A DNA stretch of 43,295 nucleotides from Methanoregulaceae archaeon (GCA_028679315.1 JAJRBU010000116.1:1-43295); one strand, 5' to 3'; numbered from the stretch's first letter, positions 30,420 to 36,517 are shown. Numbers and translations: made by a program. Notes: a model not told the origin generated them from the letters alone.

Positions 30420-31139
30420 TTAAAAACAGAATACCTCTCCGTCTTTCCCGGTATGAGGGAGATCCCAGGGGATGGTATGGCTCATGTGGACACATCTGAA
30501 ATCTCCCACGTCAAGATTATCGGCAAGAGCGCAGGCTTCGTCGTAGTTCATATGCTTGGGGATATGTACGGGAGGTGGGACCAGCGCATCAACGAAAAGG
30601 AGGTCGGCGTTGGAAAACCAAGAAAGAGTATCTGCGGGGAGGTCTGCATTTGAATCAGAAGTAAATGCAATTTTTGTCTTTCCATCAGACAGAACAAGAC
30701 CATATGCCTCTACAGGAGGATGGTTAACCGGGACCAGGGTCACCCCAAGTCCGAACAGAGTGAAGGGGAAGTACGGATCTGCAGCATTTCGCTTGAAATT
30801 CAGAAATCTGAAAATATTCCCGCAATAGTCAAGGACATGTGGAGCAGCATAGACGGCGGGCATAGCCTGGACGCGGTAAAATTCACCAAAACCCATAAAA
30901 TGATCATAATGGCCATGGGTCCATATCACGGCATCAATATGTGGGGATCCATAGATCAACAGCTGTTGTCGCAGATCGGGAGAAGAGTCGATAAGGATGG
31001 TCCTCTCCCCATGTTCGACAAGAAAGGATGTCCTCAGCCGGTGAATTCCATATTCAAGAGCAAACGCACATCGCGGGCAGGAACACCCTACCTTCGGCGT
31101 CCCTACTGCATCCCCGGTCCCCAGAACCGTAATTTTCAT
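30420..31139 (-). CDS. MBL-fold metallo-hydrolase (PhnP-like)
   Basis: MKITVLGTGDAVGTPKVGCSCPRC; HGHYDHFMG zinc motif; FTSDSNADLP. Confidence 0.88.
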   Translation of the reverse strand: MKITVLGTGDAVGTPKVGCSCPRCAFALEYGIHRLRTSFLVEHGERTILIDSSPDLRQQLLIYGSPHIDAVIWTHGHYDHFMGFGEFYRVQAMPAVYAAPHVLDYCGNIFRFLNFKRNAADPYFPFTLFGLGVTLVPVNHPPVEAYGLVLSDGKTKIAFTSDSNADLPADTLSWFSNADLLFVDALVPPPVHIPKHMNYDEACALADNLDVGDFRCVHMSHTIPWDLPHTGKDGEVFCF

Positions 31140-31140
31140 C

Positions 31141-32463
31141 CTATAACCAGTTCTGGCGGCGCACTGCACCCCTGTTGCTTACGAGGATGATTCCGCGTTC
31201 GATATCACAGTCATTGATATGGGATCTGCCCTCGATCAGCGCTGAAAGCAGGGCTTCCTTGATCATAATCCTGAGATCGGCACCGGAGAACCCTTCTGTG
31301 GTATCGGCAATAAGTCCATAATCGCATTGGCAATCGATGGAGGCGGTGATATGTTTAAGTATCTGAATGCGCATCTCCCTTCCTGGAAGGGAAAATTCCA
31401 CAATCTCGTCAAAACGTCGCCATGCCGCTTCGTCTAGCAGCTGAGGATGGTTGGTTGCGCCTATCAGGAGTACTCCGTCCCGGATAAGGCTTATCCTGTC
31501 GATGTTTTTCAGGAGTGCATTTACTGCCCTCTTCATGGCACCATGATCATCGGTGACCCTGCTCTTGGCAACGAAATCGAATTCATCAATGAATAAAATG
31601 CAGGGTGCGATCTGCTTTGCAAATTCAAAGATCCTGTCGATGTTCTTTGAGGTCTCTCCAAGATACTGCGAGGTTACCATCGATATGCGAACCTCGATGA
31701 GGGGGAGATGCATCTCCCTGGACAATCCCAGGGCGAGGCTTGTCTTGCCCGTACCGGGAGGTCCGACAAACAGGAGTTTTCCCACTTCATGAATACCATG
31801 CCGTTGCAGGGTCTCCCGGTGTTGCCGCGCAATCTTGATCTTGCTGATGATCCGGATCTGCTCATCCGTGCAGACGAAATTTTCGAATTTCTGTTCAACC
31901 TCATCCGGGGCACTGATGATGACAAGGTCCAGCCCAGATTTGAGGGATTCATCTCCGGAGAGGATTGTGGCAACCTTCTTATCAAGGAATATGCGTGTAT
32001 CCTCGTATGGCGGATTCGCAGCTCTGACAAGTTTGTAGGAAGGCGCAGTGGTATCAACGGATCCAAGGTAGAATGCCAATGCCGGGTTACTGCCGGCAAG
32101 ATTGATTCCCCCTTTCCTTACAAACATCCGTGCAGCCGCTTCGAGGCTTGTCACATGGATACGTTGGCCAAAATCATCACACGTGATAACAGGGATTTTG
32201 GATAGCTTTGAACAGGCATCCTGAATACCGAGACTACGCTTGATCATGCCTTCGCTGACAGAGAGGGGGCGCTTTACCTCTCCTTCACCGTTAACACCAA
32301 ATAACATCCGGCATTCCGGGGTAAGGTCATTGATGTCAAGGTTCTGGTGCTGGTTGAATATCTCCGCAGTGAGCGCTACCTCAAGGAGCTTTAACGTCTC
32401 ATCCTCTGGGGACATCTCTGTAACGTATGATATTGGTGCCGTGTTTCCATAAGCATATCTCAA
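31141..32463 (-). CDS. AAA ATPase (PAN/CDC48-like AAA domain with unassigned N-terminal region)
   Basis: Walker A GPPGTGKTS, Walker B ILFIDEFD, GATNHPQLLDEAAWRRFD; TTG start at 32463 overlaps the map stop (TTGA). Confidence 0.85.
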   Translation of the reverse strand: MRYAYGNTAPISYVTEMSPEDETLKLLEVALTAEIFNQHQNLDINDLTPECRMLFGVNGEGEVKRPLSVSEGMIKRSLGIQDACSKLSKIPVITCDDFGQRIHVTSLEAAARMFVRKGGINLAGSNPALAFYLGSVDTTAPSYKLVRAANPPYEDTRIFLDKKVATILSGDESLKSGLDLVIISAPDEVEQKFENFVCTDEQIRIISKIKIARQHRETLQRHGIHEVGKLLFVGPPGTGKTSLALGLSREMHLPLIEVRISMVTSQYLGETSKNIDRIFEFAKQIAPCILFIDEFDFVAKSRVTDDHGAMKRAVNALLKNIDRISLIRDGVLLIGATNHPQLLDEAAWRRFDEIVEFSLPGREMRIQILKHITASIDCQCDYGLIADTTEGFSGADLRIMIKEALLSALIEGRSHINDCDIERGIILVSNRGAVRRQNWL

Positions 32464-33347
32464 GCAGTAGTCACAATACACCCATCACTGGTGACAATGA
32501 CGGTGTGCTCGTGCTGGGATACGAGTGAACCTGGCACATCAGAAAGGACAGGATAAGAGCGGACAATGCCCTGGTTGATCAGGCTTGCAAGTGCGAGATC
32601 CTGTTTCCCATCACCAACCCAGCGTCGCGCAAAAGGCATTCCATGTCGTTTTCTTACCGATTCAAGCAATTTACGAGCGGAAGGCAGCCGCACGGGCTTG
32701 ACTGCAGTCTGCTGAAAAATCTCTATGCGCCTCTTCTCGCTTACCCTCCCAGAGCCCGTACTGGCAAACGGCTCGATGGCGAATACCATCCCTTCCTCAA
32801 GGATAGCCCCCCCCTGATAGGAGATGTTTGGGATACTCGGGGGGGTATGGATCGAATACCTGGCAAGGCCATGACCCGTGAGGTTGGTAATGGGGTGATA
32901 TCCCCGTGCTTCGATCTCATGCTGGATTATTCTTCCAAGTGCTCCGGATGTAACCCCGGGTTTCACCATCTCTATGGCATTAGTGAGTGCGGCTTCTGAA
33001 GCTTCAAGGAGCAGCGCGTTATCTCCTAGGTCGATCGTCACAGCGGTGTCCGCGATATATCCTTCCAGGTGTACACCCAGGTCCAGTTTTACGACATCTC
33101 CTCCCGAGAATATTCGCTGTTCTTCAGATGAAGCCGTATCATGTGCCGCATCTTCGTTAAACGAGAGATTGAGAGGGAATGCCAGCCCGGCGCCTTGATC
33201 CTCAACCATCTGCTCGATGGACTCGACAATTTCAAGGACCTGGTTTCCAATCTTTATCAGGGAAGACCCTTTTTCCAGGACAGCAGATGCGATCTTCCCC
33301 GCGTCACAATAATATGAGAGAGCATCCTCATCGGGCATCATGTTCAT
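32460..33347 (-). CDS. map: Type II methionine aminopeptidase
   Basis: KLDLGVHLEGYIADTAVTIDLG, GHGLARYSIHTPPSIPN, HEHTVIVTSDG. Confidence 0.93.
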   Translation of the reverse strand: MNMMPDEDALSYYCDAGKIASAVLEKGSSLIKIGNQVLEIVESIEQMVEDQGAGLAFPLNLSFNEDAAHDTASSEEQRIFSGGDVVKLDLGVHLEGYIADTAVTIDLGDNALLLEASEAALTNAIEMVKPGVTSGALGRIIQHEIEARGYHPITNLTGHGLARYSIHTPPSIPNISYQGGAILEEGMVFAIEPFASTGSGRVSEKRRIEIFQQTAVKPVRLPSARKLLESVRKRHGMPFARRWVGDGKQDLALASLINQGIVRSYPVLSDVPGSLVSQHEHTVIVTSDGCIVTTA

Positions 33348-34471
33348 ACCACCAGCTCACGGGGAAAAACGGTAAAATCCCGATATCCTGTCCGCGTTAT
33401 TACCCCGATATCCTCAAGCCTTACCCCTCCTGTCGTTTCATAGTAGAGCCCGGGTTCATTGGTGACAACATTTCCCCTGCAGAGAGCATCCCCTCCCGGC
33501 CCAAGGGACGGGAGCTCGTGAACCTCAAGCCCTACCCCGTGCCCGAGATTATGAATGAATCCTTCACCCTTCGTTCCATATCCCTGGCTGGCAAAAAGGT
33601 CAACCACAGCCTGATGCACCTCCTCTCCGGATATTCCCGGTTTCATGATGGAGGCTGCAAGGTCCTGTGCAGCCTTCACGGCATCGAACATCTCGCTTAT
33701 CTCCAATGACGGTTCACCTTTTACCACCGTTCGTGCCATATCTGAGTAATAACCGGTGTGTTCATTCCTTGGAAAAATATCGATCACAATCGGCTCTCCT
33801 TCGCACAATGTCCCGGTGCCCTTGGTATGAGGTACCGCAGTATCTCTCCCACAGGAGAGGATCGTATCCTTTGCACTACATCCCCTATGCATCAGCAGGG
33901 TATGCATATCAGATCGGATTCGTTCGGATGTGAGAGGTTTGCCATCGAGCCAGAGCATGCTGTTCCGTGCTTTTGATCTACGGATACAATCAATTGCATG
34001 GAGCATCGCTTGTTCCGCCGAGCGCTGAACCTTCTCGATTATGGATACCTCAGAGCGGGACTTTTTTGCTCTCATCAACGGGACTGTCCCCCGGTCAATA
34101 ATCACCCCGTTCAATTGATCAAGGTGACAGCCAAGGGCGTAGGGGAGGTCTGGGGGGATGAGGACCTTCCCTCCTGCCAGGCCTCCCACCATCCTTGCGA
34201 GGGCTCTCCATCGGTCCTTCTCTTCTTCAAGTATCCCGAATAGTCCGGCATCAGCCCGTGTCATGACCATCGTGGCTGCCTCTTGCTGGGCACGGGTGTA
34301 TTCCATCTGGGAAACAATGATCCATCCGCGCTCCCCGACTTTTCGAATATATATGATTGGATCGGTAGTGATGAAACGGGTGAGGTATCGCATGTCGGCA
34401 TAATCCGATGAACCGGCCATCACATACGCTGATGCCCCGCTCTTTTTGAGTGCCCGATCGAGCGCGTCCAT
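33344..34471 (-). CDS. Xaa-Pro aminopeptidase/dipeptidase-like M24 family protein
   Basis: Creatinase-like N-domain; VIDIFPRNEHTGYYSDMARTVVKG, HNLGHGVGLEVHELPSLG, TNEPGLYYETTGGVRLEDIG. Confidence 0.9.
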   Translation of the reverse strand: MDALDRALKKSGASAYVMAGSSDYADMRYLTRFITTDPIIYIRKVGERGWIIVSQMEYTRAQQEAATMVMTRADAGLFGILEEEKDRWRALARMVGGLAGGKVLIPPDLPYALGCHLDQLNGVIIDRGTVPLMRAKKSRSEVSIIEKVQRSAEQAMLHAIDCIRRSKARNSMLWLDGKPLTSERIRSDMHTLLMHRGCSAKDTILSCGRDTAVPHTKGTGTLCEGEPIVIDIFPRNEHTGYYSDMARTVVKGEPSLEISEMFDAVKAAQDLAASIMKPGISGEEVHQAVVDLFASQGYGTKGEGFIHNLGHGVGLEVHELPSLGPGGDALCRGNVVTNEPGLYYETTGGVRLEDIGVITRTGYRDFTVFPRELVV

Positions 34472-34530: not shown

Positions 34531-34758
34531 ATGGACCTGGCGACGAAAGAAAAGTTCAAATGGAAATTTTATCGTCTTGCGATAATGCTGAATATCATCA
34601 TTCTGCTCGTTGCCATTGGAATACTTGCATGGTTTTTGGTACCTGGAGTATATCGGATTCCTGTCATTCTGATTATTGCTCTCCTGGTTGGTGGACTAAC
34701 GATCTATTTCCAGGGTCAATACAGAAAAACCCGGGAATGGCTACATGACCAGGAGTAG
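34531..34758 (+). CDS. Small two-TM membrane protein
   Basis: 75 aa with two hydrophobic helices. Confidence 0.6.
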   Translation: MDLATKEKFKWKFYRLAIMLNIIILLVAIGILAWFLVPGVYRIPVILIIALLVGGLTIYFQGQYRKTREWLHDQE

Positions 34759-34803
34759 ACAATCTATGACATAACAGAGTATTCTGTAATCCTCGGGGGA
34801 ATA

Positions 34804-35091
34804 ATGATCGAAAAAGTGAAGAGTGAAATTGAGCTGATGCAACGGCATATTGAAGTTCTGCGGACCGTTGTCGATCATGAACCGATTGGTATTATGAAAC
34901 TCTCCGAGATACTCGATCAGCCGTTTCATCGGATTCGATACTCGCTTCGTGTTCTGGAGCAGATGGGCTATATCCGAGCTTCACCTTCAGGCGCTGTGGC
35001 AACCGAACTCACCGCGGATCTCCTTGAACATCTCGATGAAGAGCTTGATGAAATGATGAGACTTCTCGAAGGAATGAAAAAAGCGCATTAG
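34804..35091 (+). CDS. Winged-helix-like predicted regulator
   Basis: EPIGIMKLSEILDQPFHRIRYSLRVLEQMGYIRASPSGAVAT. Confidence 0.65.
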   Translation: MIEKVKSEIELMQRHIEVLRTVVDHEPIGIMKLSEILDQPFHRIRYSLRVLEQMGYIRASPSGAVATELTADLLEHLDEELDEMMRLLEGMKKAH

Positions 35092-35488: not shown

Positions 35489-36517
35489 ATGAAATGCCCT
35501 GTCTGTGGGGATGACTGTGTCAGAGAAGCACGGGAGATCATCGATATGATCCCTGCAGTATTCGCGGGATGCAAAGACTGCAGGATGACAATTCTTGATA
35601 AGAGTCTCCCTCCTCCAAAGGACTCCTATCATGAGGCCTGCAGCTGCGGAAGGCGATCTCTTGATGATGTTTTTGCCCATCTGTATACTCTCCTTGTCAG
35701 GGAAGGAATATTCACCGGAAAAGAAGCTCTCAGAGAGGTTGGATCACCTCTGCTCCACCCCGGTTATCCTATGGTGAATCCTCCGTTTTTACTAAAACGA
35801 TCGCTTGTTCTCCTCTCCCGTCATCCAGATAAGTCCGTTGCCCGGATGATAGTCGATGAAATCCCTGAAGTCCGGGGTGTTGTCAGGGCCGGGAAGTATG
35901 TGCCCGGAGTGACTGATACTTCCCTGAAGAAACCTCCCCGCACCTATGCACTGTTGGCAGGGTGTGATGTAAGAGCCAATGTCTTCCCGACAACGATAGG
36001 TCCTGTCGTGATCTACCAGCAGCATTCGGCAATCCATATTGAATTTCCCCGCGGTTACAATCCTAAAATACGTTCTGTTGAGGATCGGATAGCCAGGATA
36101 AAGCCCGGCTGGTTTGTTGACGTTTGCTGTGGAGCGGGAACGCTCGGTCTGACCGGTGCAAGGCTGGGAGTTCCACACGTCATTCTGAACGATGCCTGGT
36201 ACGCTGCGGCATTCTGGTCTGCATATAATACAAGAGTGAACTCGGAATTTTTCAAGGTTGATGACTTTAAAATGTATACGGATTATGCATCGATGGCAAA
36301 ACATCCGGTGGGAAAAGAACCGGTTTTGATCGCTGAGACAGAAGGCGCGCAGCAAATACAGATTTTCCAGGCGGATCTCCATGCTCTTCACCGGGTCATT
36401 CCGAAAGAACCAGTACTATCCGTAATCGATCTTTTTGATAAATCAAACCAGGCCAATTCAGGGAGAGTGATCAGAGGATGGATGTCACAGGTAAACGGCG
36501 AGGCCTTTATCCCCTGA
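35489..36517 (+). CDS. Uncharacterised methyltransferase-like protein with Cys-rich N-terminus
   Basis: N-terminal CPVCGDDC/CKDC/CSCG zinc-ribbon-like; SAM motif I-like VDVCCGAGTLGLTGARLG. Confidence 0.65.
   Translation: MKCPVCGDDCVREAREIIDMIPAVFAGCKDCRMTILDKSLPPPKDSYHEACSCGRRSLDDVFAHLYTLLVREGIFTGKEALREVGSPLLHPGYPMVNPPFLLKRSLVLLSRHPDKSVARMIVDEIPEVRGVVRAGKYVPGVTDTSLKKPPRTYALLAGCDVRANVFPTTIGPVVIYQQHSAIHIEFPRGYNPKIRSVEDRIARIKPGWFVDVCCGAGTLGLTGARLGVPHVILNDAWYAAAFWSAYNTRVNSEFFKVDDFKMYTDYASMAKHPVGKEPVLIAETEGAQQIQIFQADLHALHRVIPKEPVLSVIDLFDKSNQANSGRVIRGWMSQVNGEAFIP

Follow-up and report, generated by a model that had tools for sequence, protein, structure and literature searches.

The best-known relatives of the ATPase described here are PAN and the 26S Rpt subunits, CDC48 and AMA (AAA of Archaeoglobus and methanogens), which share with it a classical AAA domain and an aromatic pore loop. 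PAN carries an N-domain made of a coiled coil and an OB-fold, CDC48/VAT proteins have two AAA domains, and a C-terminal HbYX motif has been described for AMA (PMC4192671). By score, however, the closest named AAA domain is that of IetA from the IetAS system, a protein with a different N-domain whose partner is the subtilisin-like IetS. In contrast, the ATPase analysed here is a chromosomal single-copy core gene, and its neighbours encode an MBL-fold hydrolase (MBL), M24 enzymes, RpoL and aIF2 subunits. It lies in a contig of a Methanoregulaceae archaeon (GCA_028679315.1, JAJRBU010000116.1:1-43295), a stretch of 43,295 nt that is referred to below as the window. The features of the locus are listed in Table 1.

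Table 1. Features of the four-gene locus, in the order of transcription (positions counted from the first nucleotide of the window).
Feature	Coordinates	Strand	Remarks
M24 family Xaa-Pro-type peptidase, 375 aa	33344..34471	-	Metal ligands present; score below the curated PepQ_Arch cut-off
Type II methionyl aminopeptidase (map, MetAP), 295 aa	32460..33347	-	Metal ligands present
map-ATPase spacer, 44 nt	32416..32459	-	Conserved GATAnnCTTAT...AATA...GTTACA-ATG; putative promoter
AAA ATPase, 424 aa	31141..32415	-	Start at ATG 32415
ATPase N-domain, aa 1-174	31894..32415	-	Family-specific, mostly helical
PhnP-like MBL-fold hydrolase (MBL), 239 aa	30420..31139	-	Metal ligands invariant in alignment

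The AAA module of the ATPase (residues ~187-424) contains a complete Walker A (GPPGTGKT, 218-225), Walker B (FIDEFD, 275-280), sensor (GATN, 319-322), two Arg fingers (AAWRRFD, 330-336) and a pore loop (SQYLGE, 249-254) in which YLG is invariant in the alignment. PAN and CDC48 ranked with the best matches of this module in both sequence and fold, but the protein has neither the HbYX tail nor the OB/coiled-coil or double-psi N-domain of the PAN/CDC48/AMA group. It reached 137 bits against the PAN family model (cut-off 500) and 125.9 bits against the CDC48/VAT model TIGR01243 (cut-off 802.65), and has a single AAA domain; from AMA it is set apart by the missing HbYX motif, a comparison with the published description of AMA and not with a reference sequence. 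The source genome encodes, apart from this ATPase, three PAN-type proteins, two ending in RMYT and one in AMFA, and a CDC48-type protein. Judged from its sequence, the protein is thus a full AAA ATPase that is neither PAN, CDC48, AMA nor IetA. The original prediction was right that it ends in RRQNWL without HbYX, and among 108 relatives the tail itself is unconserved (..NWL, ..RGIGY, ..RTGR, ..SAYA), with no conserved HbYX. A reading as a proteasomal ATPase was rejected because of this absence.

The N-domain has no Pfam match, and a search against PDB sequences gave nothing convincing (best E 0.013), which leaves it without a Pfam family or a solved relative. The structure prediction that had been proposed for it yielded an AlphaFold2 model (pLDDT 87.5), mostly helical with two short strands and so different from the coiled coil and OB-fold of PAN, but no significant fold match was found with Foldseek at E<=0.001. 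A winged-helix fold was considered, as the Foldseek matches were mostly wHTH regulators, but was discarded at E values of 0.4 or worse and TM scores of ~0.2.

The tight packing of the four minus-strand genes was borne out with the exception of one boundary. The peptidase and map genes do overlap by an ATGA at 33344-33347, and -4 nt is the commonest junction among Methanomicrobiales relatives (66/92 loci); likewise, the ATPase stop TAG (31143-31141) and the MBL ATG (31139) are separated by 1 nt, again the commonest arrangement (78 of 108 Methanomicrobiales loci). In contrast, the predicted TTGA overlap of map and ATPase at 32460-32463 proved wrong. The distance from the map stop to a conserved ATG is exactly 44 nt in 75/108 loci, and in most Methanomicrobiales relatives an in-frame stop lies between the two, which rules out TTG 32463 as the start. 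Therefore, the ATPase starts at ATG 32415 and does not overlap with map.

The ATPase was found in 144/150 Methanomicrobiales genomes, nearly always as a single copy, and in 107 of the 108 of good quality. The order peptidase-MetAP-ATPase-MBL is kept in every Methanomicrobiales locus with enough flanking sequence; rpoL and aIF2-beta usually come after the block, and flanking genes such as purL are variable around it. As the order is kept in all sufficiently flanked loci while the genes outside vary, the packing exceeds chance.

The 44-nt spacer upstream of the ATPase was compared among relatives, and 27 non-redundant spacers gave the consensus TGA-GATAnnCTTAT, a variable stretch, AATA.T.aA, GTTACA and ATG. 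Shine-Dalgarno motifs were practically absent upstream of the ATPase (0-1 per position in 67 loci), whereas the other genes of the same loci showed a peak at about -15 to -9. CTTAT-like boxes were located at -38 upstream of the ATPase and, at lower frequency, before other genes of that set. The spacer would fit an archaeal promoter followed by a near-leaderless ATPase-MBL mRNA. Since the spacer carries promoter-like sequence and lacks a ribosome-binding site, the most suitable reading of the locus is a pair of two-gene units, Xaa-Pro peptidase-MetAP and ATPase-MBL, and the translational coupling of all four genes that had been put forward is unsupported.

The first of these units corresponds to ordinary N-terminal and peptide processing. 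MetAP matched TIGR00501 at 310.8 bits (cut-off 222.65), with the motifs of its five metal ligands located, and is a clear member of the type II methionyl aminopeptidase family; the other M24 protein resembles an archaeal Xaa-Pro peptidase with intact ligands, but scores under the PepQ_Arch cut-off. The sole oddity of both enzymes is the conserved order in which they precede the ATPase.

The distribution of the second unit was followed in 394 Halobacteriota genomes; family codes (f7, f11 and so on) stand for the lineages beyond the named loci, and labels such as haloarchaeal-type reflect the size and content of the genomes. The ATPase was counted with an N-domain profile, so that the shared AAA domain had no influence, and was present in 318/394 genomes, with one gene each except for one genome with two matches. 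The MBL profile detected 306/394 genomes, with orthologues at E<1e-70 and the next-best proteins near 1e-11. Both genes were present in 304 genomes, the ATPase only in 14, MBL only in 2 and neither in 74 (phi 0.88); as the absences are clustered by lineage, this phi is descriptive and the Fisher value overstates independence. The 14 genomes with the ATPase only comprise all 7 of f7, all 4 ATPase-bearing genomes of f12 and three singles, while in f11 MBL is present without the ATPase. Therefore, each gene can act alone.

MBL lay directly downstream of the ATPase on the same strand in 52 of the 54 placements checked. In a wider sample of 41 loci from 21 families outside Methanomicrobiales, it was found within 6 kb of the ATPase in 35, nearly all directly downstream and often with junctions of -4, -1 or 0 nt, a breadth that no other gene downstream of the ATPase attains. 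Second among the real neighbours came aIF2-gamma with its cluster, in ~10/41 loci, the aIF2-gamma-PIN-RpoE' cluster following in haloarchaeal-type genomes, f7 and f12. In f8 genomes (L160-L164, L170; for example L162 6011-6460), a DUF5817 zinc-ribbon protein is encoded directly before the ATPase. An M24 gene stood beside the ATPase in only 4/41 loci, both genes in f7, f12 and f26 and MetAP only in f25. The neighbourhood search suggested earlier thus left the ATPase and MBL paired and the M24 genes mostly gone, although the M24 linkage does reach past close relatives, since it is scattered over five separate lineages. The tree follows families, which indicates vertical descent; on this tree the M24 linkage needs three changes, and would fit a four-gene order that was ancestral and later broke on the M24 side.

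The ATPase-MBL pair is, in summary of these counts, conserved and adjacent with intact motifs, and it is the unit under selection. About three in four sampled Halobacteriota genomes carry it, among them members of the window's order and apparently also haloarchaea, Methanosarcina-type methanogens and Archaeoglobus relatives, as judged from genome type. Such near-fixed pairing in methanogens and salt-loving archaea speaks for a core function of the cell that is so far unstudied, and the near-universal pair can be tested directly in archaea with established genetics, for instance Haloferax. A search limited to a library of open-access papers found no description of an AAA-MBL pair. Accounting for the locus as two adjacent units, an ordinary M24 pair and a vertically inherited core ATPase-MBL pair with its own promoter and a shared client or pathway, is the explanation we tentatively prefer, at a confidence just short of even.

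The MBL partner belongs, on the residues it conserves, with the PhnP-like phosphodiesterases and has a full dinuclear metal ligand set. In 20 aligned sequences, from methanogens to haloarchaeal-type genomes, C19, C21, C24, H75-x-H77-x-D79-H80, H140, D162, K195-H196, H218 and H221 are invariant, and the profile matched PhnP (PDB 3g1p) at 6e-26. The likeness to PhnP extends to the structural metal motif GTGxxxGxPxxGCxCxxC, to HxHxDH and the other metal ligands, and to a conserved second-sphere His. However, at 80.9 bits against the PhnP equivalog TIGR03307 (cut-off 272.25) the protein is no equivalog by score, and unlike PhnP it is encoded outside any phn operon and paired with an AAA ATPase. 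Sequence does not reveal which substrate a PhnP-like enzyme acts on. A hypochlorite-linked MBL, Haloferax HVO_1041, is encoded near rpoL; no identity with the MBL of the window is claimed.

Within the two-unit explanation, the ATPase would form a hexameric ring, its own N-domain would select a client, and the YLG pore loop would pull on or remodel it. Lacking the HbYX tail, the ring would probably feed no substrate to the 20S proteasome. MBL might then serve as a PhnP-type dinuclear-metal phosphodiesterase for this client or in its pathway, and attack, for instance, a cyclic phosphate or an RNA/nucleotide end exposed by the ATPase. The likeliest guess places the client in translation or RNA metabolism, because MetAP, aIF2-gamma, aIF2-beta, RpoL and RpoE' are recurrent neighbours. 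A more specific version, in which a two-component core machine of Halobacteriota uses an AAA ring with a new N-domain to remodel a translation- or RNA-linked client for a dedicated PhnP-like phosphodiesterase, is possible but rather doubtful; if true, it would represent a phosphodiesterase that depends on energy, in analogy to the pairing of unfoldases with proteases.

It is unlikely that the ATPase and MBL share no function and merely lie in an ancient, slowly reshuffled translation/transcription cluster with MetAP, aIF2-gamma, PIN, RpoE' and RpoL. Housekeeping surroundings in many lineages, and the existence of lineages with only one of the two genes, would fit such a cluster, but its other members leave the ATPase whereas MBL stays at most loci of the wider sample, the ATPase-MBL junctions overlap, and presence and absence are joint.

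The partnership proposed at the outset, in which the whole four-gene block is a single translationally coupled module of a non-proteasomal unfoldase and N-terminal trimming enzymes, seems improbable to us. The four-gene linkage is lost in most of the phylum, where the ATPase-MBL pair is kept, even if the order is constant in every informative Methanomicrobiales locus and the M24 linkage, which also turns up at scattered places of the tree (f7, f12, f25 and f26), may be ancestral. Moreover, a promoter-like spacer without Shine-Dalgarno motif separates map from the ATPase, and MetAP, as a housekeeping enzyme, is to be expected in every archaeon. What stands of this proposal is a non-proteasomal ATPase in a conserved, undescribed module; what finds no support is its partnership with N-terminal trimming, as an M24 gene so rarely adjoins the ATPase. 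Most of the phylum can do without the M24 genes as neighbours of the pair, which makes an N-terminal trimming module less likely, and the sequences would most likely describe an ATP-driven remodelling ring with a phosphodiesterase.

PhnP-type enzymes cleave five-membered cyclic phosphates, and this chemistry speaks for another, similarly improbable, alternative: that MBL is the missing MptB enzyme, which opens 7,8-dihydroneopterin 2',3'-cyclic phosphate (EC 3.1.4.56) in folate/methanopterin synthesis, and that the ATPase merely shares its transcript. For haloarchaea the MptB step is on record as a gap (PMC8305020), MBL adjoins an MptE-like gene in f11, and an MfnF-like gene follows MBL in f9, f26 and f31. 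However, such neighbours are confined to few lineages, a different enzyme would be required where MBL is absent, the near-fixed ATPase-MBL pairing is left unexplained, and the work that records the gap names HVO_A0533 as the candidate (PMC8305020). The HD protein of the source genome gave a dGTPase-like match only and matched no MptB model in NCBIfam. The outcome would be either a new ATP-driven machine or, if MBL is the MptB enzyme, the closing of the archaeal folate/methanopterin gap.

Some further observations concern these neighbours. The MfnF-like gene (methanofuran synthesis, TIGR03123 above cut-off) lies directly after MBL in six loci, for example at L153 3822-4787, with relatives in f9 and f31. 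In the f11 genomes (L190 4951-6414, L191) that carry MBL without the ATPase, the MptE-like gene is divergent and aIF2-gamma-PIN-RpoE' follow MBL. Contigs C51 and C65 of the source genome (L195, L196) both bear a similar cofD and dGTPase-like HD gene, perhaps through strain mixture or assembly duplication.

An IetA-type defence ATPase with MBL in place of the IetS protease is highly improbable and was rejected: the IetA models are the best named matches of the AAA domain (PADLOC 214.5 bits, NCBIfam 191.8 bits), but the match is confined to that domain and stands at 191.8 bits against an NF042959 cut-off of 510, and, unlike a defence system, the ATPase is single-copy, vertical and near-universal, with no full-length copy among 72,556 plasmid records or in viral contigs, and is therefore a chromosomal core gene.

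Upstream of the locus, divergent from the Xaa-Pro peptidase, a small membrane protein and an HTH protein (34804-35091) are encoded on the plus strand at 34531-35091, and the HTH gene keeps its place ~330 bases upstream of the peptidase in nearly all Methanomicrobiales loci. Further on, a 342-aa ORF (35489-36517, plus strand) found no match in Pfam or NCBIfam; it adjoins malate dehydrogenase across Methanomicrobiales with 40-75% identity and contains a methyltransferase-like motif (VDVCCGAGTLGLTGA).
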